A DNA stretch of 15,475 nt, taken from the NCBI GenBank assembly GCA_021204375.1, contig JAJPZL010000429.1:1-15475 (forward strand), written 5' to 3'. The notes under the pieces are model-generated. The model saw only the letters and a list, made by a program, of their open reading frames with translations, had not been told where the DNA came from and did no database searches. This DNA comes from Bacteroides sp. Lineage in GTDB: Bacteria > Bacteroidota > Bacteroidia > Bacteroidales > Bacteroidaceae. Made by a program: the position numbers and the translations under genes. Positions 24 through 15,301 of the stretch are shown piece after piece; the first letter of the stretch is position 1; every line of letters begins with the position of its first letter.

Positions 24-2387
24 ATGCAGAAAAACCTTGTCATTGTCGAATCTCCGGCTAAAGCAAAAACGATCGAGAAGTTTTTGGGTAAGGATTTTAA
101 AGTTCTTTCCAGTTACGGACATATCCGCGATTTGAAGAAAAAAGAGTTCAGTATTGAGATTGAAGAGAAGAAGCAGGACTCTTTTGACTTTACTCCGGAG
201 TATGAAGTACCGGCTGATAAGAAGAAGCTGGTTGCCGAGCTGAAAGCCGAGGCCGCAGATGCAGACACCGTATGGTTAGCTTCCGATGAAGACCGGGAGG
301 GAGAGGCTATTTCCTGGCATTTGTATGAAGTGCTTGGACTCCAGCCTGAGAAGACCAGACGAATTGTTTTCCATGAAATTACCAAGAACGCTATTTTAAA
401 GGCTATCGAAGAGCCCCGAAATATTGATTTTAACCTGGTAAATGCCCAGCAGGCACGGCGGGTACTGGACCGTATTGTAGGTTTCCAGCTCTCTCCGGTG
501 TTGTGGAGAAAAGTAAAATCTGCCCTCTCTGCCGGAAGGGTACAGTCGGTTGCTGTACGCCTTATTGTAGAAAGGGAAAGGGAGATCCAGACCTTTCAAA
601 GCGAAGCCTCTTACCGGGTTACGGCTGTTTTTGGTATTACCGATGAAGATGGAAAACCCGCCGAGCTGAGAGCGGAACTGGCTCACCGGCTGAAGACGGC
701 TCAGGAGGCCGAAGAGTTTTTAAAGAGTTGTAAAGATGCTCTTTTCACTATTGAGGATATCAGTACGCGTCCGGTTAAAAAGTCTCCGGCTGCTCCTTTT
801 ACGACCTCTACCCTCCAACAGGAGACGGCTCGTAAATTAGGATTTACAGTCGCTCAGACCATGATGGTGGCTCAGAAACTGTATGAATCGGGAAAGATCA
901 CTTATATGCGTACCGATTCTGTAAACCTTTCCGGGTTTGCGATCAATGGTTGTAAAGATGCCATTACCTCTATCATGGGGGATAAGTATCTCAAAGTACG
1001 TCAGTTCACCACTAAGACCAAAGGGGCGCAGGAGGCTCACGAAGCCATTCGTCCTACCTATATGAATGATCAGAAGATCGAAGGTACTTCTCAGGAGAAG
1101 AAGCTTTATGACCTGATCTGGAAAAGAACGATTGCATCGCAGATGGCAGATGCCGAGCTGGAAAAAACAACAGCTACGATTGGTATCAGTACTGGTGATG
1201 ATAAATTTGTTGCTGTGGGTGAGGTGGTGAAATTTGATGGTTTCCTTCGAGTGTATAAAGAGTCGTATGATGATGATACAGAGCAGGAGGATGAGAGCCG
1301 GCTGTTACCTCCGCTTTCGGTGGGACAGAAACTGGCCCGTCAGGAGATTGTGGCTACCGAGCGCTTTACGCAACGTCCGCCCCGTTATACGGAAGCGAGT
1401 CTGGTGCGTAAGCTGGAAGAGCTGGGGATCGGACGTCCTTCTACCTATGCACCTACTATCTCTATCATTCAGCAACGGGAGTATGTGGAGAAAGGAGATA
1501 AAGAGGGAACGGAAAGAAAGTATCAGGTATTTACCCTGAAAGAGGATAAACTCTCTTCCGCTACCAAAAAAGAGGTAGTGGGTACAGAAAAATCGAAGCT
1601 TTTCCCGACGGATATAGGATCAGTGGTTAATGACTTCCTGACTGAATATTTCCACAGTATTCTTGACTATAACTTTACAGCGAGCGTAGAGAAGGAGCTC
1701 GATGATATTGCTGATGGCGAAAAGGAGTGGAAGAATATTATCAGTGAGTTCTATAAGGACTTTCATCCGCTGGTAGAGAGTACGTTGGCTGCCAAAATGG
1801 AGCATAAAGTAGGGGAGCGTATATTAGGTACCGATCCTAAAAGCGGTAAACCGGTCTCTGTAAAGATCGGCCGTTTTGGTCCGGTGGTACAGATCGGTAC
1901 GGCCGACGATGAAGAAAAACCTCTCTTTGCCCAGATGAAGAAAGATCAGTCTATGGAGACCATTACGCTGGACGAGGCGTTGGAACTCTTTAAACTTCCC
2001 CGTAATCTGGGAGAATATGAAGGGGAGACGATTACGATCGGTGCCGGTAAATTCGGACCTTATATACGCCATAACGGTAAGTTCATCTCTCTTCCCAAGG
2101 AGGCAGATCCGTTGACCATTACGCTGGAAGAGTCTGTAGAGCTGATTGAAGAGAAGCGAAAGACAGAGGCACAGAAGGTGATCAAGTCTTTTGAGGAAGA
2201 GCCTGAGTTGCAGATCCTGAACGGACGGTATGGTCCTTACATTGCTTTTAAAGGCAAGAATTATAAGATCCCTAAAGAGGTAGTATCGCAGGACCTGAAT
2301 CTGCCTACCTGTTTTGAGATCATTCGTCTGCAAGACGAGAAACCGGCTACTCCCCGAAAGGGTAAGTATGCGCGGAAAAAAGGATAA
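24..2387 (+). CDS. topA: DNA topoisomerase I (type IA)
   Basis: This is a type IA topoisomerase that relaxes negatively supercoiled DNA through a transient 5'-phosphotyrosine link. The N-terminal Toprim domain opens with a VIVESPAKAKTIEKFLG motif, and its acidic triad lies in SDEDREGE (residues 87-94). The catalytic tyrosine is Tyr294 in TYMRTDS, with Arg296 two residues later. The region after about residue 590 carries three C-terminal topoisomerase repeats (GRFGP, GKFGPYI and GRYGPYI cores) and a Lys/Arg-rich tail. No Cys4 zinc fingers are present, as is usual in Bacteroidota. The ATG at 24 gives MQKNLVIVES, the normal family start; a TTG at position 6 in the same frame would add six unlikely residues. 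The protein is 787 aa and intact. Only 23 bases precede it here, so its promoter is not visible. It converges on the small repeat-protein gene downstream. Confidence 0.97.
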   Translation: MQKNLVIVESPAKAKTIEKFLGKDFKVLSSYGHIRDLKKKEFSIEIEEKKQDSFDFTPEYEVPADKKKLVAELKAEAADADTVWLASDEDREGEAISWHLYEVLGLQPEKTRRIVFHEITKNAILKAIEEPRNIDFNLVNAQQARRVLDRIVGFQLSPVLWRKVKSALSAGRVQSVAVRLIVEREREIQTFQSEASYRVTAVFGITDEDGKPAELRAELAHRLKTAQEAEEFLKSCKDALFTIEDISTRPVKKSPAAPFTTSTLQQETARKLGFTVAQTMMVAQKLYESGKITYMRTDSVNLSGFAINGCKDAITSIMGDKYLKVRQFTTKTKGAQEAHEAIRPTYMNDQKIEGTSQEKKLYDLIWKRTIASQMADAELEKTTATIGISTGDDKFVAVGEVVKFDGFLRVYKESYDDDTEQEDESRLLPPLSVGQKLARQEIVATERFTQRPPRYTEASLVRKLEELGIGRPSTYAPTISIIQQREYVEKGDKEGTERKYQVFTLKEDKLSSATKKEVVGTEKSKLFPTDIGSVVNDFLTEYFHSILDYNFTASVEKELDDIADGEKEWKNIISEFYKDFHPLVESTLAAKMEHKVGERILGTDPKSGKPVSVKIGRFGPVVQIGTADDEEKPLFAQMKKDQSMETITLDEALELFKLPRNLGEYEGETITIGAGKFGPYIRHNGKFISLPKEADPLTITLEESVELIEEKRKTEAQKVIKSFEEEPELQILNGRYGPYIAFKGKNYKIPKEVVSQDLNLPTCFEIIRLQDEKPATPRKGKYARKKG

Positions 2388-2448: not shown

Positions 2449-2481
2449 TTACCGGAACCTTCAACGTCCCATTGCTCTGCC

Positions 2482-2890
2482 TTTATAAAAGGATCTCCAG
2501 GTATCTTCCGCATAGCCATTGCCTGTATATTTGAAGGAGTTGGCGGATGCCTCTTTGACCACTTCTCCTTTATAAAATACTTTCCAGTTATCTTTTGCAT
2601 ATCCGCCTCCCAGGGATTGGAAGGAGTTAACGGATGCTTCTTTGATCACTTTTCCTTTATAAAATACCTTCCAGTTGTCTTTAGCATATCCATGATCTAT
2701 ATAACTAAATGAACTGGCAGAGGCTTCTTTAAGGGGGGGGTGCCCTTATAAAACACTTTCCAGTTATCTTTTCCATATTCTCCATCCAGGTAGGTAAAGG
2801 AGTTAGCGGATGCCTCTTTGATCTCTTTTCTATGATAAAAGACCTTCCAGGTATCTTTTGAATATCCGCCTCCTAAAATAGTTACTTTGT
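2482..2890 (-). repeat. Five tandem 87-nt coding repeats
   Basis: The plus-strand core TTTATAAAA (variants allowed) recurs at 2482, 2569, 2656, 2745 and 2832. Spacings are 87, 87, 89 and 87 nt. Each unit encodes one 29-residue module of the secreted repeat protein. The units have diverged at the DNA level, so the repeat is old. The single 89-nt interval contains the G8 tract and is the frameshift site. Confidence 0.85.
2733..2740. repeat. G8 mononucleotide tract at a frameshift
   Basis: Eight consecutive G on the plus strand (C on the coding strand) lie inside the second repeat unit of the minus-strand gene. With six C the unit would read KGTPLKEAS and match the 29-residue period; with eight it goes out of frame. 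Runs of this kind are typical slipped-strand sites. They can serve phase variation, mark decay, or be sequencing errors. Confidence 0.75.
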
Positions 2891-3061
2891 TTTGTGCAAC
2901 TTCCTGGTTGAAGTAGGTTTCAGTTGGGCTTCCGGCCGATAATTCAGGAACTGTAAAAACGAAGGCCCATGCAAGGGATAGGATCACTAATTTTTTCATG
3001 TCATCAGTTTTTATTAATCTGTTTAGTTTTAAAAAATAGTAGTTCTTTTCAGTAAGATAGC

Positions 3062-3452: not shown

Positions 3453-6400
3453 ATGTCTGACAAATTGAAAAACATGCGTACCCTTTGCCTGCTCTTCTTT
3501 GCAGCTTTGTCAATAGGGATTTCCGCGCAAACCGTTAGCCTTAGAGGTAACGTTACAGATTCTTCAGGGGAGCCTGTCATAGAAGCTTCAGTTTTGGAAA
3601 AGGGGACAATGAATGGAGTCATTACTGATTTGGATGGTAATTTTCAGCTCAATGTTTCCGGAGATCTGCCTCTTGTTATTTCATACATAGGGATGAGAAC
3701 ACAGGAGATCACTGTCAAAGGAAAAACAACTATCCAGGTTATTTTAGAGGACGATGCCCAGGCATTGGATGAAGTGGTGGTTGTAGGATACGAGGTATCC
3801 CGCAAAAAAGACCTTACCGGTTCGGTATCTACTGTGGGTGGGAATGAACTGGCAAAGATCCCTGTTACTTCAGCCGCTGCTGCCCTGACCGGTAAGGTCG
3901 CCGGGGTCACCGTATCGTCTGCGAAAGGTTCTCCGGATGCAGAGGTAAAGATCCGTGTGCGTGGTGGAGGTTCTATTACTCAGGATAACTCTCCGCTCTA
4001 TATTGTGGATGGTTTCCCTGTTAATAACTTCAGCGTGTTTCCCTGGCGAATATTGAAACAATGACCATTTTGAAGGATGCCTCTTCGACCGCTATTTATG
4101 GTGCTCGGGGTGCTAACGGAGTAGTTATGATCACTACCAAACAGGGTAAAGAGGGAAAGACCAGTGTCTCTTTTAACTCTTACTGAGGAGTCAGGAAACT
4201 GGCTAAAACTCTGGATGTACTGGATCCGTATGAATATGTCTTGTGGCAATATGAGCTGGGAGGTGAATCCGGAACGACAGCTGATAACGTAAGATGTTTC
4301 TATGGAGATTATGGGGATTATGAACTCTATCAGAATCAGAAGGGTACTAACTGGCAGGAAGAGGTATTCGGCCGGAATGCATTTACCCAAAATTATAATG
4401 TGAATATTAACGGAGGGAACGAGCGTACCCGTTTTAGCTTAGGTTTGACCCGTGCGGACGAAGAGGGAATTATGATCCACTCCGGCATGGAGCGTAACAA
4501 TGTGAATTTTAATTTAAATACGAAACTGAATGATCACTGGAGTTTTGATTTCAATACCCGTTTTACCAATTATGTGGTGGATGGTAGCGGAACCTCTTCT
4601 TCCAACTCTACCAATGCGTTCCTGAGACACGCAATTCAGTATCCAACAACTTCGGGATTGGCAGATGTACTGGGAACAGATATTCCGGGAGCAGATATTG
4701 AAACGTATAACTCTTTGGTAAATCCGTTAGCGGTAATTAATGATACTTATCGTCAGTTGAAGCATAATACACTGGCTCTGAATGGGGGGGGGATTACCTT
4801 TAAATTCCTGAAGGATTTTACGATCCGCAGTGAATGTGGTACTGAGATACAGAACCAGAAGGAACGTAAATATTATGGTACTGACTCTCCTCAGACTTCC
4901 AATTACGGTTCTTTTCCGATGGTGATCGTTACGGATTATGAAGCAAATAGCTACCGTATTGCTAATACACTAACTTATCTCAAGGACATTATACCCAACC
5001 AGAGTTTGAATGTAATGATCGGCCAGGAGGTAACTTCGGCTAAAGCGAAAACGATCCAGAATGGAGTGCGCTATTTCCCGATGGGTACTACCATTGATAA
5101 TGCATTTGCTATAATGTCCCAGGGAACTGCACAGCCGCTTTACACGTATGAAGCGCCGGATAATAATATGGTCTCTTTCTTCGGACGTATCAACTACTCT
5201 TTAATGGACAGATATCTACTTATCGGAACTTTCCGTTCGGACGGTTCCAGTAAATTTGCCAAAGGGAATCAGTGGGGGTATTTTCCTTCTATTGCCGGAG
5301 TCTGGAGAGTCAGCGAAGAGGATTTTATGCAGCCTGTAGAGTGGGTCTCTAACCTGAAAGCCCGTTTGAGCTTTGGTATGGCCGGTAATAACCGTATTGC
5401 GGATAACCTGTGGAAAATGACCTACCAGAGTGATGCGGATAGGGAAAATTATACTTATAATAATGTCATACAGAACCAGCTGCGTCCGGGTAGTACACTT
5501 TCTAATCCGGATCTGAAATGGGAAACAACAGTAACCCGTAACTTGGGTCTGGATATGGGATTCCTGAATAACCGGTTGAATGCTGTGGTGGATCTTTACT
5601 GGAATACAACCAAGGACTTACTGATCCGGGCAGCTATTCCGGCCAGCACCGGATATACTGCACAGATGCAGAACATTGGTCAGACTTCTAATAAAGGATT
5701 AGAGATCTCTTTAGATGCCTTGCTGGTTAATAAGAAAGATTTTTCACTCTCTGCCTCTTTCAATATTGCATTTAATAAGAACAAGATCGAGAAGCTGGGG
5801 GCTGATAAGACGTTATTGTATGAATCCGGTTGGTATGGAACCCAGGGTCCTACCGGTGAATACCTGATACAGGAGGGTAAGTCAACCGGTTTGATGTATG
5901 GATATGTAACCGATGGCATGTACTCTTTTGATGATTTCAACTACGATTATAGTACAGGTGCTTATACCATCAAAGAGGAAGTGGCTTCCAATAGTGCACA
6001 AATCGGAGGTGGACGTTATTTTGGGCCGGGAGCGTTGAAGTTTAAAGACCTGGATGGCGATGGATATATTGACTCGGAAAATAATCGTACCGTGATCGGA
6101 AATGCGAATCCGAAACATACCGGTGGTTTTACGCTCAATGCTACTTATAAGAACTTCGATCTGACCGCACAGTTTAACTGGTCGTATGGGAACGATGTCT
6201 ACAATGCCAATAAGCTGAACTTTACCTCTTATCCGGGAACCCGGACCTTTCAAAATATCTACTCGATCATGAGTTCGGATAAACGCTTTATTACGTTTGA
6301 TAAAACAGGTGAATATACGGGGTAGCGGGTAGTTTTGTAAGCGATCCGGATATCCTGGCTAAGATGAATGAGAATGCTACGATCTGGAGTCCGATGATGA

Positions 6401-6681
6401 GTAGTCTGGTTATGCACTCCTGGGCAGTGGAAGATGGCTCGTTCCTGCGTCTGAATAACCTTACCATCGGATATACACTTCCGAAATCGGTTATGAATAA
6501 ACTTAAGATCAATAGTATTCGCATATATGCTTCCGGATACAATTTATGGACCTGGACCAAATATACCGGATACGATCCGGAAGTAGACGTTTTCAGCTCC
6601 AATCCTTTAACTCCTAATGTGGACTACTCTGCTTATCCGAGAAGCCGGACATTTGTAGGGGGGATAAATATCAACTTCTAA
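3453..6681 (+). pseudogene. SusC/RagA-like TonB-dependent transporter, disrupted
   Basis: This is the remnant of an outer-membrane SusC-family transporter that would import oligosaccharides with its SusD partner. Residues 1-25 are a signal peptide ending ISAQ, followed by a carboxypeptidase-regulatory-like domain (about 27-105), the TonB-box-like DEVVVVGYE, and a plug domain with IYGARGANGVVMI. The barrel ends in GGININF, the usual terminal Phe. There is no N-terminal STN signalling domain. Three lesions are visible. One base is missing at about 4035 (codon 195; adding a base restores NNFSDVSLANIET). An in-frame TGA lies at 4184-4186 (codon 245). One base is missing from the G run at 6319-6322 (codon 957; repair gives EYTGVAGSFVSDPD). 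Repaired, the length is exactly 1076 codons plus stop. The longest surviving fragment (4241-6325) lacks signal peptide and plug, so a working transporter is not expected. An alternative start is the ATG at 3474. Confidence 0.9.
4784..4792 (+). repeat. G9 tract inside the susC-like gene
   Basis: Nine consecutive G encode three glycines (ALNGGGITFKF) in the barrel region of the SusC-like pseudogene. The run is currently in frame. It is the longest G run in the window, and a one-base change would shift the frame. Confidence 0.8.
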
Positions 6682-6693
6682 TAACATGCAAAT

Positions 6694-6699
6694 AAGGAG
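6694..6699 (+). promoter_or_regulatory. Ribosome binding site of susD-like gene
   Basis: AAGGAG lies four bases before the ATG at 6704. It selects that ATG over the ATG at 6686 in the same frame, and the chosen start gives a clean lipoprotein signal peptide. Such a strong site is unusual for this phylum. Confidence 0.6.
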
Positions 6700-6703
6700 A
6701 ATT

Positions 6704-8574
6704 ATGAAAAACAAAATATTGAAATGGTTCTCGGTTATTGTAGCTGTACTTATATGCAGCAGCTGTGATGACTTTTTGGATACAGAATCCAAATCTACTT
6801 ATACACCTGATGTAGTATTTAGTTCTAAGGTATATACCAATGATGCGGTAATAGGGATCTATTCGGCCTTTATTGCAACGGAAGTATGGAACAACTTCTA
6901 TTACCCTTTCAATACGGATATCGAGATACAGGAGTTCAGTACCGGTTCTTATGATGATAATGAACGCCGTAGTATTGCTAACTATGTAGCAGAGTCGGGT
7001 AATATCGGTCTTGCTTCCTCTTACAATGCTTATTACAAAGCCGTAGAGAGAGCCAATCTTGTGATTCAGGGCATCCGTGAGAGCGCCTTGTATACCAATG
7101 AGAACCACGAGGATCATGAAGTGATGGCGCAATATCTGGGAGAAGCTCTTACACTCCGGGCTTACCTCTATATAGAATTAGTCCGTAACTGGGGAGATGT
7201 ACCTTTCAAGCAAGAGCCTACCAGCTCGGACGGGAGCAATTTCTATACCGGTAAAACCGATAGGGATGTGATCTATGATGCACTGATCGTAGACCTACAG
7301 GAGGCTATTGAACTATTGCCCTGGTATGGAGCGAACTCCAATGCCAGCCACATTGAACGGGTGACCAAAGGGTTTGCCAAGGGGCTTCTGGCTCAGATAT
7401 GTCTGAACCGGGGTGGATACTCGTTCCGTAAAAGCCTGAAAATAGAACGTGGAAGCGATTGGGAGAAGTATTATGAGATCGCCCGTTCGGAATGCCAGGA
7501 TATTATTGCCAACGGCATCCACTAGCTTACTCCTTCGTATGTAGATATCTGGAAAAAGTTGTGTGGTCTGCAGTATAATGACTATAATGAGAATCTGATC
7601 GAATTTGGCTTCGAAATAGGTGGAGCCGGTGAACAGGGATATATTGCAGGATGGAATTTAATACCAGTGATAAATATGGGTATGGTAACCAGGCCGGTAT
7701 TCGTACCACACCGGGCTTCCTCTATTCATTTGATCCGCAGGATAGCCGCCGTCTGGTATCGGTAGCTGTTGCCCAATATGATAATAACGGTGTGCAACAG
7801 ATCATTACCGATGCGGCTGCTCTGAATATCGGTAAATGGAACCGTAAATGGATGACCAGTGAATATATTGTCCGTATGCAGAGTGCAACAGGTAAGATGG
7901 TAACCGGTATTAACTGGGTACCTCTGCGTATGTCGAATATTTACCTGATGCTGGCAGAGGTAGAAAATGCGTTGCCCGGTAGAGATATTGGTGTGGCCAG
8001 AGAAGTCTTGCGGGTAGTAAGGAACCGCGCGTTCAGTGAAGCTGATCAGTCAACACGGACCCGCCTGGTCGACAATTATGTGAACGCTCTGTCAAAAGGA
8101 GATGATTTCCACGAAGCTATTATGCAGGAGAGAGCCTGGGAGTTTGCCGGTGAGAGTATCCGTAAATGGGACCTAATCCGTTGGAATAAATTGACTGAAA
8201 AGATCCAGGAGGCCAGAAAGGTAAATGAGCAGATCATCAAAAAAGAAGGAGAGTATGATTACATACCTGATTATCTGTTTGTAAAATGGAGTGCCTCAGA
8301 TGCGGTGGAGATTGATTATGATCAACTAAATCTGGATGAAGATCTGGGAACTACGGATATCTCCGGTTATACCCGTGTAAGCTGGTATTCGGCAACTTAT
8401 TCGGACGAGGAAGATGCTGCAGAATATGTTCAGCACCTGAATGCCTGGGGGTGTGGCTTGGATGGAGGAAATGGATTTAAGAGTATTTCTGTACAGGATC
8501 GTCATCTGCTTCCGCTTCCGCAGACTGCTATTGACTCTTCTGCCGGTACTTTGGTAAATGACTATGGGTTCTGA
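6704..8574 (+). pseudogene. SusD/RagB-like glycan-binding lipoprotein, disrupted
   Basis: This is the remnant of the SusD-family surface lipoprotein that caps the SusC barrel and binds glycan. It starts MKNKILKWFSVIV, with lipid-attachment Cys21 in LICSSC followed by DD, the acidic pattern typical of Bacteroidota surface export. TPR-like SusD segments follow (AYNAYYKAVERANLVIQGI, LGEALTLRAYLYIELVRNWGDVPF). The C-terminal domain contains ESIRKWDLIRWNKL and ends LLPLPQTAIDSSAGTLVNDYGF-style, as SusD proteins do. There are two lesions. A TAG at 7523-7525 (codon 274) interrupts NGIH-LTPSYVDIWKKL and may have been CAG. One base is missing near 7657-7659 (TTTT to TTT would restore GWNFNTSDKYGYG). 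Repaired, the length is exactly 623 codons plus stop. The gene begins 22 bases after the SusC-like stop and was presumably co-transcribed with it. Confidence 0.9.
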
Positions 8575-8603
8575 TAAATTGATAATATACAATGAATAGA
8601 CAT

Positions 8604-10230
8604 ATGAAAATTATATACTAAATCCGATAAAGCTTTTATTGCTGATAGCAGGCTTCTCGTTTGTGTTTACCGCCTGTTCTGATGATGACGATGGTAATGT
8701 GGTTCCCAATCGTCTGTTCCGGCCTCTTTTTGTTAACGATAGTATTTATGCTCACAATAACTCTTTGCATATTGTATGGTATGATATTAAAGATGCCCGT
8801 GGTTACCTGGCTGAGATCAGTCTGGATGATTTTACAACGGTTCTGGAAAGTGTGGAGACTACCGGTACGGTGGCCGACTTCAGGGGGCTTGAGTAGGAAA
8901 CTGCGTATGGTATCCGTGTAAAGGCTCTCCATGAAGACCCGGCGGAAGATTCTCATTATGCGGTTTTTGAGGGTAGATTGTCCACAGAAATGAAACCTGT
9001 TATCAATATGGGCAGGCCATTGGTTGATCTTTCACCCACTTCGGCTGTTATTGCTTGGGACGATTATCAAATGGGAGATGAGCTCTATGTGATAAGTAAA
9101 TTATTAGTTTACGAGGGTGAAACATTGATCAGTACCATTACTACCGGTCTGGCGAATAAAAGATATGAGTTAACGGGATTGACTCCGGATACTGAATATA
9201 CCGTTGTTCTGGGAGTAGAGGATGAGATGATGGGACAAATTGGCTCTGTTACCTTTACTACCTATCGTGCGGATATTATTATAGTGGGTGAGGGAGAAGA
9301 TCTGTATACGCTAATAAAGAGTGCTCCCGAAGGTTCTACTTTCCTTCTTCCGGCCGGCCGTACCCATGCAATGGCAACCACCGGTAATGTACCGATGGAG
9401 TATAGCTTTACCCTGATCGGTGGTGAAACCGGAGATGATAGCAAAGTACGTTTCTATGTAGATGGTGAGTTTGAACCGGTAGCCGGAGGAAGTGTGGATC
9501 ATATGCGTTTCAGGAATCTGGAGATCAATGGATTTGGTGATACCGACGGTGATTATCAAACCGGTATGTTTATCGCCGATGGAGGAAATGACTTTACACT
9601 GGGTACCCTTGAATTTACAGATTATGATATTAAACATGCACAGTGGGCATTTGTTTACCTGAAAGGTACGAATCAGGTAATTAATGAGGTCATTATTGAG
9701 AACTGTACACTGACCGATCTGGGTTCACAGTGGGGACAAGAAGCTCCGATCTGTGGCGTAGAAGCTGCTAACAGTGGTTATAATAGTGTTATTATGCGTA
9801 ATTCTACTCTCGCTGATTGTCCGGCAGGGGTAGTAACCAGTAACCGGAATGCTGCCGGAAGTATTACTATTGAGAATTATACGTTCTATAATACCATGCG
9901 TGCTCCTTTCATGCTGATCAATTATAAAACTTACAATGTAGCTGGTACCATTACTATTCAGAATAATCTCTTTGGAGAAATTATATAACCCGGGGACCTG
10001 AATATAGTACCCGTGGAGCAGTCGTTAATGATGCTGCACTGGCACAGTCACCGTTTATTTCTGATAACTATGCAACTACTGACTTTACGATGGAAGAGTA
10101 CCCGATACCGGGTATGGGTAGTGCAGGAGGAGATTCAGAAGCGGTATTCCAGGATACTCCGAACGGCGATCTTACTATTATTAGTAATACCATGAAGCGA
10201 TTAAAGGCAGGAGACCCCCGTTGGTATTAA
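8604..10230 (+). pseudogene. FN3/DUF4957/DUF5123-type surface lipoprotein, disrupted
   Basis: This is the third gene of the operon, in the position of SusE/SusF-like surface glycan-binding proteins. It begins MKIIY, then goes out of frame at 8619-8621 (codon 6). One added base joins it to NPIKLLLLIAGFSFVFTAC with lipid Cys25 and a DDDD stretch. Two fibronectin-III-like modules follow (about residues 30-215; SAVIAWDDY and LTGLTPDTEYTVVLGV are typical). A beta-helix-like region then resembles DUF4957/DUF5123 proteins and ends in the characteristic GDPRWY; the family names are from recognition, not a search. Lesions are the early frameshift, a TAG at 8894-8896 (codon 98, GLE-ETAYGIRVKA), and a missing base at about 9986 (codon 462), after which TRGPEYSTRGAVVND continues in the next frame. 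Repaired, it is 542 codons plus stop. An in-frame ATG at 8592 would add four residues. Confidence 0.82.
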
Positions 10231-10251
10231 AAAATTATAGTTAATTCATCC

Positions 10252-10285
10252 ATAAACCGGAACAAATCTCTCTGTTCCGGTTTAT
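10252..10285 (+). terminator. Terminator of the SusCD-type operon
   Basis: A perfect 13-bp inverted repeat (10252-10264 and 10273-10285) with an 8-base loop begins 22 bases after the last stop codon of the operon. The 3' arm ends in TTTAT. The terminator is intact although the genes before it are decayed. Confidence 0.75.
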
Positions 10286-10318
10286 CTGCTTACTTTGAGT
10301 TGTGGATGGTAAAGCCAC

Positions 10319-10355
10319 AAAAAACAGCCCGGTTATGTGAATAACCGGGCTGTTT
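10319..10355 (-). terminator. Rho-independent terminator of argS
   Basis: A perfect 15-bp stem (10322-10336 and 10341-10355) with a GTGA loop is followed on the minus strand by six T (A6 at 10319-10324). It starts about 27 bases after the argS stop. The structure is symmetrical and could also stop read-through from the plus-strand operon. Confidence 0.88.
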
Positions 10356-10381
10356 GTATATATACTATCGGAGTCTGTATT

Positions 10382-12178
10382 TTACATTCTTTCAGGAACC
10401 TCGATCCCCAACAGTCCCATACCGGTACGAATTACTTTTCCTACATTCTGCGAAAGCATCAGGCGGAATAGCTTCCGCTCGTTGTTCTCTTCACGGAGAA
10501 TGGAGTAGTCGTGGTAGAACTGGTTATACTCTTTTACCAGGTCGTAAGTATAGTTGGCAATGCCGGAGGGACTATAATCTTCACCGGCCTGCTTTACTAT
10601 TTCCGGGAATTCAGAAAGTGTCTGAATCAGGCCGTTCTCCTTCGGATTCAGTTCCGGGTTGCCGGTAAGTTGCTGCGGTATGGTAATTCCTTCTGCTGCC
10701 GCTTTACGAAGTACAGATTGGATACGGGCGTAGGTATATTGTATAAAGGGACCGGTATTCCCGTTAAAGTCAATAGACTCTTTCGGATTAAAGGTCATGT
10801 TCTTGCGGGCATCTACTTTCAGGATGAAGTATTTCAATGCTCCCAACCCTACGATACGGGCTGTTTCAGCCAGCTCTTCCCGGGAAGCGTTTTCCTGTTT
10901 ACCCAGTTCAACCGAGGTCTCCAGGGCGGTCCGGATCATCTCTTCTACCAGATCGTCCGCATCTACTACGGTCCCCTCGCGTGATTTCATCTTTCCTTCT
11001 GGAAGCTCTACCATACCATAAGAGAAGTGTACCAGTCCTTTACCCCATTCAAAACCAAGTTTATCCAACAGGATAGAGAGTACCTGGAAGTGGTAGTTCT
11101 GCTCGTTCCCTACTACATAGATCATTTTATTGATCGGATAGTCGTCGAAACGCAGTTTAGCAGTACCGATATCCTGTGTCATATATACGGAAGTGCCGTC
11201 TGCACGGAGCAGGAGTTTATGATCGAGTCCTTCGGCAGTAAGGTCAGCCCATACCGAACCATCCTCTTTCCGGTAGAAAATCCCTTTTTCAAGTCCTTCC
11301 AGGGCTTTATCTTTTCCAACCAGGTAGGTCTCTGATTCATAGTATATTTTATCGAAACTTACACCCAGCTTGCGGTATGTTTCATCAAATCCTTCGTATA
11401 CCCATCCGTTCATGGTAGCCCAGAGTTCCCGTACCTGCGGGTCACCGGCTTCCCATTTTACCAGCATTTCACGGGCTTCGTTCATCAGGGTTGAAGCGGC
11501 TTCTGCTTCCTCTTTGGTCAATCCTTTTTCCATCAGGGAAGCCAGTTCTGCTTTATAATGTTGGTTAAAAGCTACATAGTAATCTCCTACCAGGTGGTCT
11601 CCTTTTTTACCGGAAGAGGCAGGCGTCTCTCCGTTCCCATATTTCTGCCAGGCCAGCATAGATTTGCAGATATGGATACCCCGGTCGTTTACAATATTGG
11701 TCTTTACTACCTTATTACCATTGGCTGCTACGATATTGGCCAGTGCATTTCCAAGTAGGTTGTTCCGGATGTGTCCCAGGTGGAGGGGTTTATTGGTGTT
11801 GGGAGAGGAGTATTCGATCATTACCCGCGGAGCGTTCTCACCGGCATTTTTAATACCAAATTCCTGATCCTGATGGATGAAATGAAGCATCTCCAGCCAG
11901 GAGGGAGCAGCTATGGTGAGGTTCAGGAACCCTTTGATCACATTGAAAGAGGCAACCGAAGGTTCGTTCTCCTGTAGGTAAGCTCCTATTTCCTGTGCTG
12001 TCTGCTCCGGACTTTTACGGGAAATTTTCAGAAAAGGGAATACTACAAGTGTGTAATGTCCTTCGAATTCTCTCTTTGTTTTTTGTATCTGTATGGCAGA
12101 GGGGGGAACTTCCTGTACGTACAGGGACCTCAGTGCCTGTTCTACAGCATCCTGGATCTTTATTTCGATGATACTCAT
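10382..12178 (-). CDS. argS: Arginyl-tRNA synthetase
   Basis: This class I aminoacyl-tRNA synthetase charges tRNA-Arg with arginine using ATP. An N-terminal ArgRS domain (about residues 5-90, IQKTKREFEGHYTLVVFPFL) precedes the Rossmann catalytic core with SSPNTNKPLHLGHIRNN; the HIGH-type motif is HLGH at 133-136. The KMSKS-type loop is KMKSR at 396-400. A C-terminal DALR anticodon-binding domain (about 470-598) starts near GPFIQYTYARIQSVLRKA and ends GIEVPERM. The protein is 598 aa and intact. The ATG at 12178 (MSIIEIKIQD) is chosen because the family starts there and because a TATCTTTG promoter element lies between it and the only longer in-frame start, at 12241. The gene is monocistronic on this strand, with its own terminator. 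Confidence 0.97.
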   Translation of the reverse strand: MSIIEIKIQDAVEQALRSLYVQEVPPSAIQIQKTKREFEGHYTLVVFPFLKISRKSPEQTAQEIGAYLQENEPSVASFNVIKGFLNLTIAAPSWLEMLHFIHQDQEFGIKNAGENAPRVMIEYSSPNTNKPLHLGHIRNNLLGNALANIVAANGNKVVKTNIVNDRGIHICKSMLAWQKYGNGETPASSGKKGDHLVGDYYVAFNQHYKAELASLMEKGLTKEEAEAASTLMNEAREMLVKWEAGDPQVRELWATMNGWVYEGFDETYRKLGVSFDKIYYESETYLVGKDKALEGLEKGIFYRKEDGSVWADLTAEGLDHKLLLRADGTSVYMTQDIGTAKLRFDDYPINKMIYVVGNEQNYHFQVLSILLDKLGFEWGKGLVHFSYGMVELPEGKMKSREGTVVDADDLVEEMIRTALETSVELGKQENASREELAETARIVGLGALKYFILKVDARKNMTFNPKESIDFNGNTGPFIQYTYARIQSVLRKAAAEGITIPQQLTGNPELNPKENGLIQTLSEFPEIVKQAGEDYSPSGIANYTYDLVKEYNQFYHDYSILREENNERKLFRLMLSQNVGKVIRTGMGLLGIEVPERM

Positions 12179-12206
12179 AATCTTGAAAAGGTTTTTATTT
12201 GGTTTG

Positions 12207-12214
12207 CAAAGATA
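12207..12214 (-). promoter_or_regulatory. Putative -7 element of argS
   Basis: The minus strand reads TATCTTTG, an exact TAnnTTTG match, 28 bases before the argS ATG, implying a 5' leader of roughly 20 bases. The same octamer stands before the minus-strand repeat-protein gene. No clear -33 TTTG is seen, but the A-rich double repeat at 12261-12280 lies upstream. Confidence 0.6.
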
Positions 12215-12260
12215 TACATTCGTCTTTATTATTGAAGCCATCTTGACTTTTTATACTTCA

Positions 12261-12646: not shown

Positions 12647-13330
12647 ATGATGGGAATACCTACAGTTACCAAAAACCTGCTGATAATAAATGTTCTTTTC
12701 TTTTTTGGGTCCGTGGTGGCACTTAAGCATGGAATTGATCTGAACCATTGGCTGGGTTTGCATTTTTTTATGGGGAAGGACTTTTACCTTTTCCAGTTTT
12801 TCTCTTACATGTTCCTCCATGCTAATCTTACCCATCTTTTCTTCAATATGTTTGCTGTCTGGATGTTTGGGCGGGTATTAGAGTATGTCTGGGGAGGAAA
12901 ACGTTTCCTACTTTATTATATAGTATGTGGGGTAGGTGCAGGTATTGTACAGGAAATAGTACAATATATACATTATACCATAGAGCTTTCCAAATATACC
13001 AGTGTGAATACGGGCATGGGTGTTATTCCTATGATAGAATATCTTAATCTGCTTACTACCGTAGGGGCATCGGGAGCTGTCTTTGGGATCCTGCTGGCAT
13101 TTGGCATGTTGTTCTCCAACCAGTCTCTTTTTATATTTCCCCTGCCGATACCTATCCGCGCCAAATATTTTGTGATCGGATATGCAGCGATTGAGTTATT
13201 CCTGGGAGTAAGTAATAATCCCGGGGATAATGTGGCTCACTTTGCCCATCTGGGAGGAATGATCTTCGGGCTTATTCTGATTTTGTACTGGAAAAAAAAG
13301 AACAGAAATAATGGCACCTATTTTCAATGA
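12647..13330 (+). CDS. Rhomboid family intramembrane serine protease (first copy)
   Basis: This polytopic membrane protease should cleave transmembrane substrates with a Ser-His dyad. The nucleophile is Ser142 in TVGASGAVFG and the catalytic His is His201 in AHFAHLGG. The HxxxN oxyanion motif is HLFFN (His63-Asn67). Hydrophobic stretches fit about six membrane helices. A long linker of about 30 residues (about 104-135) before the active-site helix is an insertion relative to compact rhomboids. At 227 aa it is close to the minimal bacterial rhomboid size. Two adjacent ATG codons (12647, 12650) are both possible. Its 3' end overlaps the next gene by 20 bases, so the two are probably translationally coupled. 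Substrate unknown. Confidence 0.93.
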   Translation: MMGIPTVTKNLLIINVLFFFGSVVALKHGIDLNHWLGLHFFMGKDFYLFQFFSYMFLHANLTHLFFNMFAVWMFGRVLEYVWGGKRFLLYYIVCGVGAGIVQEIVQYIHYTIELSKYTSVNTGMGVIPMIEYLNLLTTVGASGAVFGILLAFGMLFSNQSLFIFPLPIPIRAKYFVIGYAAIELFLGVSNNPGDNVAHFAHLGGMIFGLILILYWKKKNRNNGTYFQ

Positions 13331-14198
13331 TCTTAAACTACAATTTAAGCAGGGGAATATTGTGAAAAGATTTCTTTTTATTAACATTGCCGTTTTTATT
13401 CTTTGTGTACTGGTGACGGTAGTGATGCAGCTGTTTAATTACAGCAGTGTCTCTTTTTTACGTTTTTTTGAACTACCCGCTTCTTTCGGAAAATGGCTGT
13501 GGCAACCCTGGTCGCTTTTCACCTATATGTTTATGCATGCGGATATCCTGCATATTCTTTTCAATATGTTGTGGTTCTATTGGTTCGGGCAACTTTTTCT
13601 GCTGGTTTTCTCTGAAAAGCATCTTCGCGGCTTGTATATTTTGGGTGGACTCTGCGGGGGATTGCTTTATATGATCTCCTATAATCTGTTTCCCTATTTC
13701 CGTCCGGTGGTCGAAGGGCCCTATCTGCTGGGAGCCTCTGCTTCGGTCCTGGCTATTGTGATGGCTGCTGCTTACCGCGAACCTAACTATATGATCCGGC
13801 TACTCTTTTTTGGAAATATACGGTTGAAATACCTGGCATTGGTGGTAGTCGTTACCGATCTGCTTTTTCTTACTTCTGCCAATGCAGGCGGACATATCTC
13901 TCACCTGGGTGGAGCTTTGGGAGGTCTCTGGTTTGCCTCTGCACTGGCAAAGGGACGGGATATGACGCACTGGATCAACCGGATACTGGATGCATTGAGC
14001 GGAAAAGGGTTTGGTAAAAAGCAGAAGTCTAAGATGAAAGTGCATTATAACCGCAGTCCTAAAGATTTTGAATACAATGCCCGGAAGAAAGCAGATACTG
14101 AAGAGGTGGACCGCATTCTGGATAAGATCCGGAAATCAGGCTATCAGAATCTTACTGCGGATGAGAAACAGAAGCTTTTTGATGCAAGTAAACGGTAA
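13311..14198 (+). CDS. Rhomboid protease with C-terminal cytosolic tail (second copy)
   Basis: This second rhomboid differs from its neighbour. The dyad is Ser143 in LLGASASVL and His198 in GGHISHLGG; the HxxxN motif is HILFN (His81-Asn85). After the last membrane helix (about residue 212) it has a soluble tail of about 80 residues that is basic in the middle (GKKQKSKMKVHYNRSP) and ends in a helical segment, ADTEEVDRILDKIRKSGYQN, followed by LTADEKQKLFDASKR. That end segment is common in Bacteroidota rhomboids and may be a regulatory or protein-binding module; this is inference. It is 295 aa and intact. The start overlaps the upstream rhomboid, and the stop lies two bases before the next start. 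Confidence 0.94.
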   Translation: MAPIFNDLKLQFKQGNIVKRFLFINIAVFILCVLVTVVMQLFNYSSVSFLRFFELPASFGKWLWQPWSLFTYMFMHADILHILFNMLWFYWFGQLFLLVFSEKHLRGLYILGGLCGGLLYMISYNLFPYFRPVVEGPYLLGASASVLAIVMAAAYREPNYMIRLLFFGNIRLKYLALVVVVTDLLFLTSANAGGHISHLGGALGGLWFASALAKGRDMTHWINRILDALSGKGFGKKQKSKMKVHYNRSPKDFEYNARKKADTEEVDRILDKIRKSGYQNLTADEKQKLFDASKR

Positions 14199-14200
14199 GG

Positions 14201-15301
14201 ATGAAGTTCTTCGGTAGCCTGCTCTATCTGATCCTGGGAATGGTGAATCTGCTGGTTGCAGGTTTACTGATCTTCTCAGCTTATAGTACGTGGATAAGTC
14301 CGGTAGAGTATCCGGTCCTTTCTGCGGTAGGACTCGCTTTCCCTGCTTTTCTGGCAGTAAATATTCTTTTTATTCTTTTCTGGCTTGTTTTCCGGAGAGG
14401 TTTTTCTCTTTTTTCATTCATTGCCATTCTTATCTGCTGGAGTGCAGTACGGACTTACCTGCCCGTCAATATGCCTTCCCGTGTACCGGAGAATGCTATC
14501 AAGGTGCTCTCCTACAATGTAATGGCTTTTAACAGCCAGGCACCCCATACACCGGGATCTCCCAATCCTATTCTGGAATATATCCGTAACAGCGAGGCAG
14601 ATATTATATGCCTTCAGGAGTTTGTATACTCTTCCGATAAGAAAAAACTGACGCTGGCGGATATTAATAAAGCCTGGGCGGACTATCCTTACCGGAAAGA
14701 GGTGAAACTGGGTGTGAAGAGGAAAAGTGGAAATGCCGTGGCCTGTTATTCTAAATTCCCTGTTCTTTCGGCCCGTTTGATCGATTATGAGAGCGGGTAT
14801 AACGGTTCAGCCCTTTTTACCTTGCTTATTAATGGCGATACGGTTTCAGTGATCAACAATCACCTGGAATCCAATAAGCTCACCTTAGAAGATAAAACTA
14901 TTTATAAGAATATGCTGAAAGATCAGCAGGGAAGTGATCTGCAGGGAGGTGTGAAACATCTGGTGAAAAAGCTGGCCGATGCCTCTTCTTTGCGGGCTCA
15001 TCAGGCGGACAAGATCAGGCAGGTGATCGACTCTATCGGGGATAACCCTCTTATTGTATGTGGTGACTTCAATGATAGTCCTATCTCTTATACCCACCGG
15101 GTGATCAGTAAAGGGTTTACGGATGCTTTCCGGCAGTCGGGGAACGGGCTTGGAATCTCCTACAATCAGAATTATTTTTATTTCCGGATCGACCATATCC
15201 TGGTCAGTAAGAACTATCGTTCCCTGGATTGTACCGTAGATCGTTCTATCCGGGATTCTGACCACTATCCGATCTGGTGTTACGTGGTAAATAAAAAGTA
15301 G
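14201..15301 (+). CDS. Membrane-anchored endonuclease/exonuclease/phosphatase family protein
   Basis: The N-terminal 90 residues contain about three hydrophobic helices, followed by an EEP-fold catalytic domain (about 100-366). All family motifs are visible: LSYNV (Asn106), CLQE (metal ligand Glu140), NNHLESN (His221), GDFND (Asp289, Asn291), RIDHILVS (Asp331) and SDHYPIW (Asp354-His355). EEP enzymes cleave phosphodiesters or phosphomonoesters in nucleic acids, inositol phosphates or lipids; the motifs do not reveal which. The helix count would place the domain on either membrane face, so this needs topology data. It is 366 aa, intact, and starts two bases after the second rhomboid, so it is probably the last gene of that operon. 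Confidence 0.92.
   Translation: MKFFGSLLYLILGMVNLLVAGLLIFSAYSTWISPVEYPVLSAVGLAFPAFLAVNILFILFWLVFRRGFSLFSFIAILICWSAVRTYLPVNMPSRVPENAIKVLSYNVMAFNSQAPHTPGSPNPILEYIRNSEADIICLQEFVYSSDKKKLTLADINKAWADYPYRKEVKLGVKRKSGNAVACYSKFPVLSARLIDYESGYNGSALFTLLINGDTVSVINNHLESNKLTLEDKTIYKNMLKDQQGSDLQGGVKHLVKKLADASSLRAHQADKIRQVIDSIGDNPLIVCGDFNDSPISYTHRVISKGFTDAFRQSGNGLGISYNQNYFYFRIDHILVSKNYRSLDCTVDRSIRDSDHYPIWCYVVNKK

Follow-up and report, generated by a model that had tools for sequence, protein, structure and literature searches.

Bacteroides are textbook generalists that carry dozens of glycan loci. The polysaccharide utilisation loci of Bacteroidetes run in the order SusC, SusD, surface protein, and the locus described here is like them in gene order, domains and homologue lengths, but here none of the three genes is intact. 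Degenerating genomes rich in fresh pseudogenes are described for the Sodalis-allied symbionts (SOPE; Oakeson et al. 2014, PMC3914690). The locus lies on a 15,475-nucleotide stretch of DNA (the window), which is contig C473 of genome bin G000 (3.30 Mb, 506 contigs, 79% complete), and the nearest named relatives of its topA and argS are Bacteroides. The evidence below indicates that this SusC/SusD/DUF5123 glycan-uptake operon was, very probably, recently pseudogenised as one instance of genome-wide erosion under relaxed selection. The decay appears to be paralleled, independently, in the sister species G109.

Eight lesions in a glycan-uptake operon

The sister genome was found by a topA search over 149 genomes of the genus. 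TopA of G109 is 98% identical to that of the window, and the next-closest genomes reach 78-80%. The G109 contigs are collinear with the window, at 93.4% identity over the 8.9 kb that hold the operon and argS, 93.3% on the topA side and 89.7% over the part that encodes two rhomboids and an endonuclease/exonuclease/phosphatase (EEP) protein.

Compared with G109, the ~ 6.73 kb operon carries five one-base deletions and three nonsense codons. The SusC gene has deletions at about 4036 and 6322 and a nonsense codon at 4184-4186, the SusD gene a nonsense codon at 7523-7525 and a deletion at about 7657, and the third gene a nonsense codon at 8894-8896 between deletions at about 8607 and 9978. A sequence-only reading of the window had reported five frameshifts and three in-frame stops in these genes, and all are present, each no more than about a dozen bases from where it had placed them. 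One needs rewording: the stop that it listed near 8619 is real but is not a separate lesion, as it is a consequence of the one-base loss at about 8607, which leaves the count at eight. The comparison with a sister genome that it had called for is informative, as G109 is open at all eight sites, and the lesions are thus absent from a close relative, as expected of pseudogenes. Two of the five deletions fall in short A-runs and three lie outside homopolymers. Near 4784, a G-run differs in length by three bases; this preserves the frame and is not among the eight.

With these lesions the frames cannot encode the operon's proteins, and loss of function of the operon is well supported. Eight lesions in the 6.73 kb operon against none in 6.87 kb of neighbouring genes has a probability of about 0.004 under an even rate, but the stretch was picked after the fact, so the genome-wide counts below weigh more. 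Disruption by a transposon was considered and rejected: the operon has no insertion relative to G109, and a single DDE_Tnp_1 match was found genome-wide (other transposase families were not searched).

The ancestral arrangement is still legible. A receptor with a carboxypeptidase-regulatory-like domain and a Plug domain is followed by a SusD gene, as in a SusC/SusD operon. The SusC gene persists as open frames at 3453-4064, 4241-6325 and 6364-6681, with Pfam matches to CarbopepD_reg_2 and Plug on the first piece, and its homologues are 1071-1167 amino acids (aa) long. Two SusD pieces match PF14322 and PF07980, and the Pfam matches of the G109 copy likewise support SusD. The third gene retains Pfam traces of FN3 and DUF4957. 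In G109, the SusD gene and the third gene are open, at 629 and 546 aa respectively. Its SusC gene is interrupted by a different stop, which divides it into frames of 465 and 587 aa; the window has an open codon at that position.

Decay across the genome and in a sister species

All genome-wide counts are samples of each genome rather than whole genomes, and the comparison set consists of the sister G109, the complete relatives G112 and G026, and a control bin, G169. Among the matches listed, SusD_RagB (PF07980) domains hold in-frame stops in 12 of 35 cases in G000 (42 matches) and 5 of 49 in G109 (60 matches), versus 0 of 28 in G112 (33 matches) and 0 of 38 in G169 (46 matches). Fisher tests against the controls' 0 of 66 give p = 7e-7 for G000 and p = 0.012 for G109.

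SusC receptors were surveyed through their Plug domains. Frames shorter than 600 aa account for 40 of 62 in G000 and, among the matches listed, for 19 of 37 in G109 and 5 of 38 in G169, contig ends not being allowed for in these figures. The complete relatives G112 and G026 have none among their listed matches, the shortest frame being 644 aa. A closer survey of 24 G000 contigs, including the window, covered 27 Plug matches (26 genes): three lie in frames of at least 850 aa, three run into a contig end, and 21 are bounded by stops at less than 850 aa. The stop-bounded frames comprise 16 of the 27 at < 600 aa and five of 611-831 aa, which may be intact receptors of another size. In one search across genomes, the matches listed outside G000 held an in-frame stop only in G032 (two matches).

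Most conserved genes have escaped damage. In these surveys, G112 proteins (800 kb sampled) and SusC proteins served as references, and conserved genes are those with at least 55% identity. An evenly spaced sample of 40 G000 contigs (235 kb) contained 55 genes. None of the 15 conserved genes (18.2 kb) is broken, versus 17 of the 40 less conserved or SusC genes (47.0 kb), which carry 32 lesions (23 stops and 9 frame changes). Under a single rate, the chance of zero lesions in the conserved genes is 4e-6. The spared conserved genes include matches to ClpB, fructose-bisphosphate aldolase, glucose-6-phosphate isomerase and a TolC-type protein (below cut-off). Ten GTP_EFTU and four tRNA-synt_1 matches in G000 hold no stop; the latter represent three genes that, by size, are probably IleS, LeuS and MetS. 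On 20 G000 contigs selected for SusC, 34 of 47 genes are broken. In these samples many genes are broken and conserved ones mostly spared, the pattern of erosion in a nascent symbiont.

Beyond the window, some 31 kb of G000 aligned with G109, with 21 G109 open reading frames (ORFs) of at least 150 codons. Because the frames were taken from G109, stops in that genome could not be counted, and a given frameshift could lie in G000 or in G109. Thirteen of the 21 ORFs are frameshifted relative to G000 or hold a G000 stop (20 such stops in total), and ORF maps show G109 frames that are also split where G000 is open. Genes for GH2, GH99-like, GH9, fasciclin, SusC and SusD proteins are among those broken in the aligned stretches, and those for Omp85, peptidase U32 and an esterase are open in both genomes.

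Selection, timing and competing explanations

The sequence-only reading had proposed estimating the ratio of nonsynonymous to synonymous substitution rates (dN/dS). Relative to G109, the broken frames fall at 0.06-0.16, like their neighbours: SusC 0.067, SusD 0.064 and the third gene 0.159 (operon overall 0.082), with 0.056-0.139 for the five intact neighbours. Its statement that frames are preserved outside the lesions holds, the frames being conserved with low dN/dS. The closeness of these values to those of the neighbours suggests that selection kept the operon frames until recently and that the loss is recent. The neutral share of the G000 branch is estimated at about 0.05 down to about 0.001 for a background dN/dS of 0.056 to 0.08, a figure that depends strongly on the assumed background and gives a rough sign of recency, no date. 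Other broken genes have dN/dS of about 0.08 to 0.30, and the higher values of 0.2-0.3 look as if decay were staggered.

We infer host or niche restriction as the cause. A shift to a narrower niche or host would remove selection on many glycan-use functions, and drift would then fix small deletions and nonsense mutations in one gene after another. In this operon, SusC may have fallen first or most readily, as it is the sole gene of the three that is broken in G109. The earlier proposal of a recent collective loss is thus borne out as regards a recent loss of polysaccharide uptake, but not as one operon decaying between intact neighbours, since decay is genome-wide and also occurs in G109. Nor need the three genes be lost jointly, as G109 has lost only SusC, and by a different mutation.

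Several observations weigh against genome-wide erosion under relaxed selection, or limit it. The three conserved genes on the SusC-selected contigs are all broken, all on contig C12, where one matches ribokinase and another, weakly, a RhaT-like transporter, the third having no clear family. With both G000 samples combined, 3 of 18 conserved genes are broken versus 48 of 84 others (p = 0.003), a small conserved sample. A translational GTPase (C150:841-1633), presumably prfC by size, is split over two frames in G000, and dprA (DNA recombination mediator; C482, about 1684-2838) carries in-frame stops in G000, whereas the copies of G109, G112 and G169 are open. Sulfatases show the pattern weakly, with a stop in 1 of 5 G000 matches. 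The G109 survey found 16 of 61 genes broken, including 2 of 15 conserved ones, with frame changes in nrdD and its neighbour (C250, 335-3192), which we name nrdG by place. In the control G169, 8 of 72 genes have frame changes (conserved, 2 of 18), with 0 stops in 86 kb aligned; one of these changes is again in nrdD (C93, 5089-7469). Expansion of insertion sequences (IS) is not seen, with one match in G000 and none in G109 to DDE_Tnp_1, the only family searched. Relaxation in the operon alone is not borne out by amino-acid changes polarised with outgroups: window-to-G109 branch counts of 21:11 for SusC and 12:9 for the third gene (6 and 6 unresolved) are similar to 12:5 for topA and 14:12 for argS (2 and 6 unresolved). 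Finally, the lesions are read from one G000 assembly, and its SusC and TopA clusters contain the window alone.

So, could the lesions be consensus mistakes in a fragmented metagenome bin? The 506 contigs and 79% completeness of G000 allow for it, as do the two deletions in A-runs and the frame changes in nrdD and nrdG of G109 and nrdD of G169, those that were read being in or near A- or G-runs. The nrdD and nrdG changes come either from mistakes in assembly or from losing a gene generally regarded as important in anaerobes, and together with the other G169 frame changes they indicate some error floor or method noise in such bins. Stop counts are more trustworthy than frameshift counts from chained tblastn, as the 8 apparent frame changes and 0 stops of G169 illustrate. 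However, three of the five deletions lie outside homopolymers and three of the lesions are single substitutions, none of the 15 conserved genes on evenly spaced contigs (18 kb) or of the five neighbours (6.9 kb) is broken, and the control bin has no stop in 86 kb. We therefore consider sequencing or assembly error an unlikely source of the pattern. Error confined to this part of the contig, the alternative offered by the sequence-only reading, is likewise unlikely given that decay is genome-wide and tracks function.

The other explanations are weaker still. One is that a single accessory operon was lost in the ordinary way, or that the consensus of a population caught a strain-level polymorphism, neither of which would carry genome-wide meaning. 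Bacteria commonly lose individual accessory operons, and a second assembly of the species was not found in the SusC and TopA clusters. The genome-wide and sister-species counts of broken genes make this quite improbable. The conserved frames and low dN/dS outside the lesions might also be expected if the genes were functional through a reassigned stop codon or programmed frameshifting, but the 23 G000 stops at codons open in G109 use all three codons (10 TAG, 7 TAA and 6 TGA), and the five deletions occur at unrelated sequences, with G109 open at each lesion. Use of every stop codon, combined with indels, leads us to reject recoding almost without reservation. Recent pseudogenisation of the operon within a wider erosion remains our preferred reading.

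The locus, its relatives and known systems

The features of the window are collected in Table 1; no RNA or tRNA features were found in it. All five genes claimed as lesion-free by the sequence-only reading (topA, argS, both rhomboids and EEP) are indeed open. Its description of the neighbours as intact does not extend to all of them, as the DKNYY-family gene, which it missed, is also frameshifted: the window frame changes near a G-run at 2731-2738, and the G109 copy has a stop there. The intact terminator that it described could not be recovered by a pattern scan of 10150-10450; by eye, there is a hairpin at 10257-10280 with a weak T-run.

Table 1. Features of the 15,475-nucleotide window
Feature	Position	Strand	Basis
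topA, intact reference neighbour	27..2387	+	ORF, family check; dN/dS 0.056
DKNYY-family repeat gene, frameshifted, between topA and operon	2461..2999	-	PF13644 on both pieces
SusC-type TonB-dependent receptor pseudogene	3453..6681	+	ORFs, Pfam, homologues, G109 comparison
SusD-type glycan-binding protein pseudogene	6686..8574	+	Pfam on two pieces, G109 comparison
Third gene, FN3 - beta-helix/DUF4957 - DUF5123 protein, pseudogene	8592..10230	+	ORFs, Pfam, G109 comparison
argS, intact reference neighbour	10382..12241	-	ORF; TIGR00456 above cut-off; dN/dS 0.075
Two rhomboid genes, intact	12647..14198 (12647-13330, 13311-14198)	+	ORFs, Pfam
Endonuclease/exonuclease/phosphatase-family (EEP) gene, intact	14201..15301	+	ORF, Pfam

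In G109 argS, a TAA is reported with an open frame of 603 aa, and there is a one-base gap there too. The 598-aa ORF of G109 starts downstream of the TAA, and matches from relatives mostly start at about residue 24 of the window protein, which places the TAA and gap upstream of the likely start. Values of dS relative to G109 are uneven along the contig, from 0.14 in the third gene to 0.42 in the second rhomboid, and may reflect recombination between sister lineages.

One more distant relative is known from its proteins only. A 541-aa homologue of the third gene (P0242) is open and 76% identical, and an 807-aa SusC protein (P0002), 86% identical, starts inside the gene, so SusC may also be broken upstream in that genome. 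The two proteins probably share one contig of 14,368 bases. At 80 argS loci of relatives, many of them cut by contig ends, two have any SusC match (28-33% identity) and none has SusD or the third gene; on this survey, the operon at the argS site looks particular to this clade.

The type of erosion is already known, and no Bacteroides genome with such decay was found in the part of the open-access literature covered. A lineage and its sister losing different glycan loci would make it possible to study the order of loss and whether the outer-membrane receptor goes first. Such lineages could also be used to ask which ecological change makes glycan loci dispensable, over a time so short that the ancestral frames can still be read. 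It is plausible, if somewhat less likely than not, that two or more Bacteroides species of one clade are in mid-transition to dependence on a host or partner. They would be losing their polysaccharide utilisation loci in parallel, through point mutations and small deletions and not through insertion sequences, and would form a Bacteroides counterpart of Sodalis whose intact cousins are available for comparison.

Seen against SOPE and Sodalis (PMC3914690), the parallels are a large genome in which many pseudogenes are fresh, and relatives whose gene sets are intact. SOPE differs in its IS expansion, compared with a single DDE_Tnp_1 match in G000 and zero in G109, and in having a known host, where a host of G000 is only presumed; the nameable broken genes of G000 are mainly for glycan use. 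The Desulfovibrio ectosymbionts of termite-gut protists (PMC7608387) belong to another phylum and likewise have a known host. What they share with G000 and G109 is that related bacteria stand at different stages of reductive evolution.

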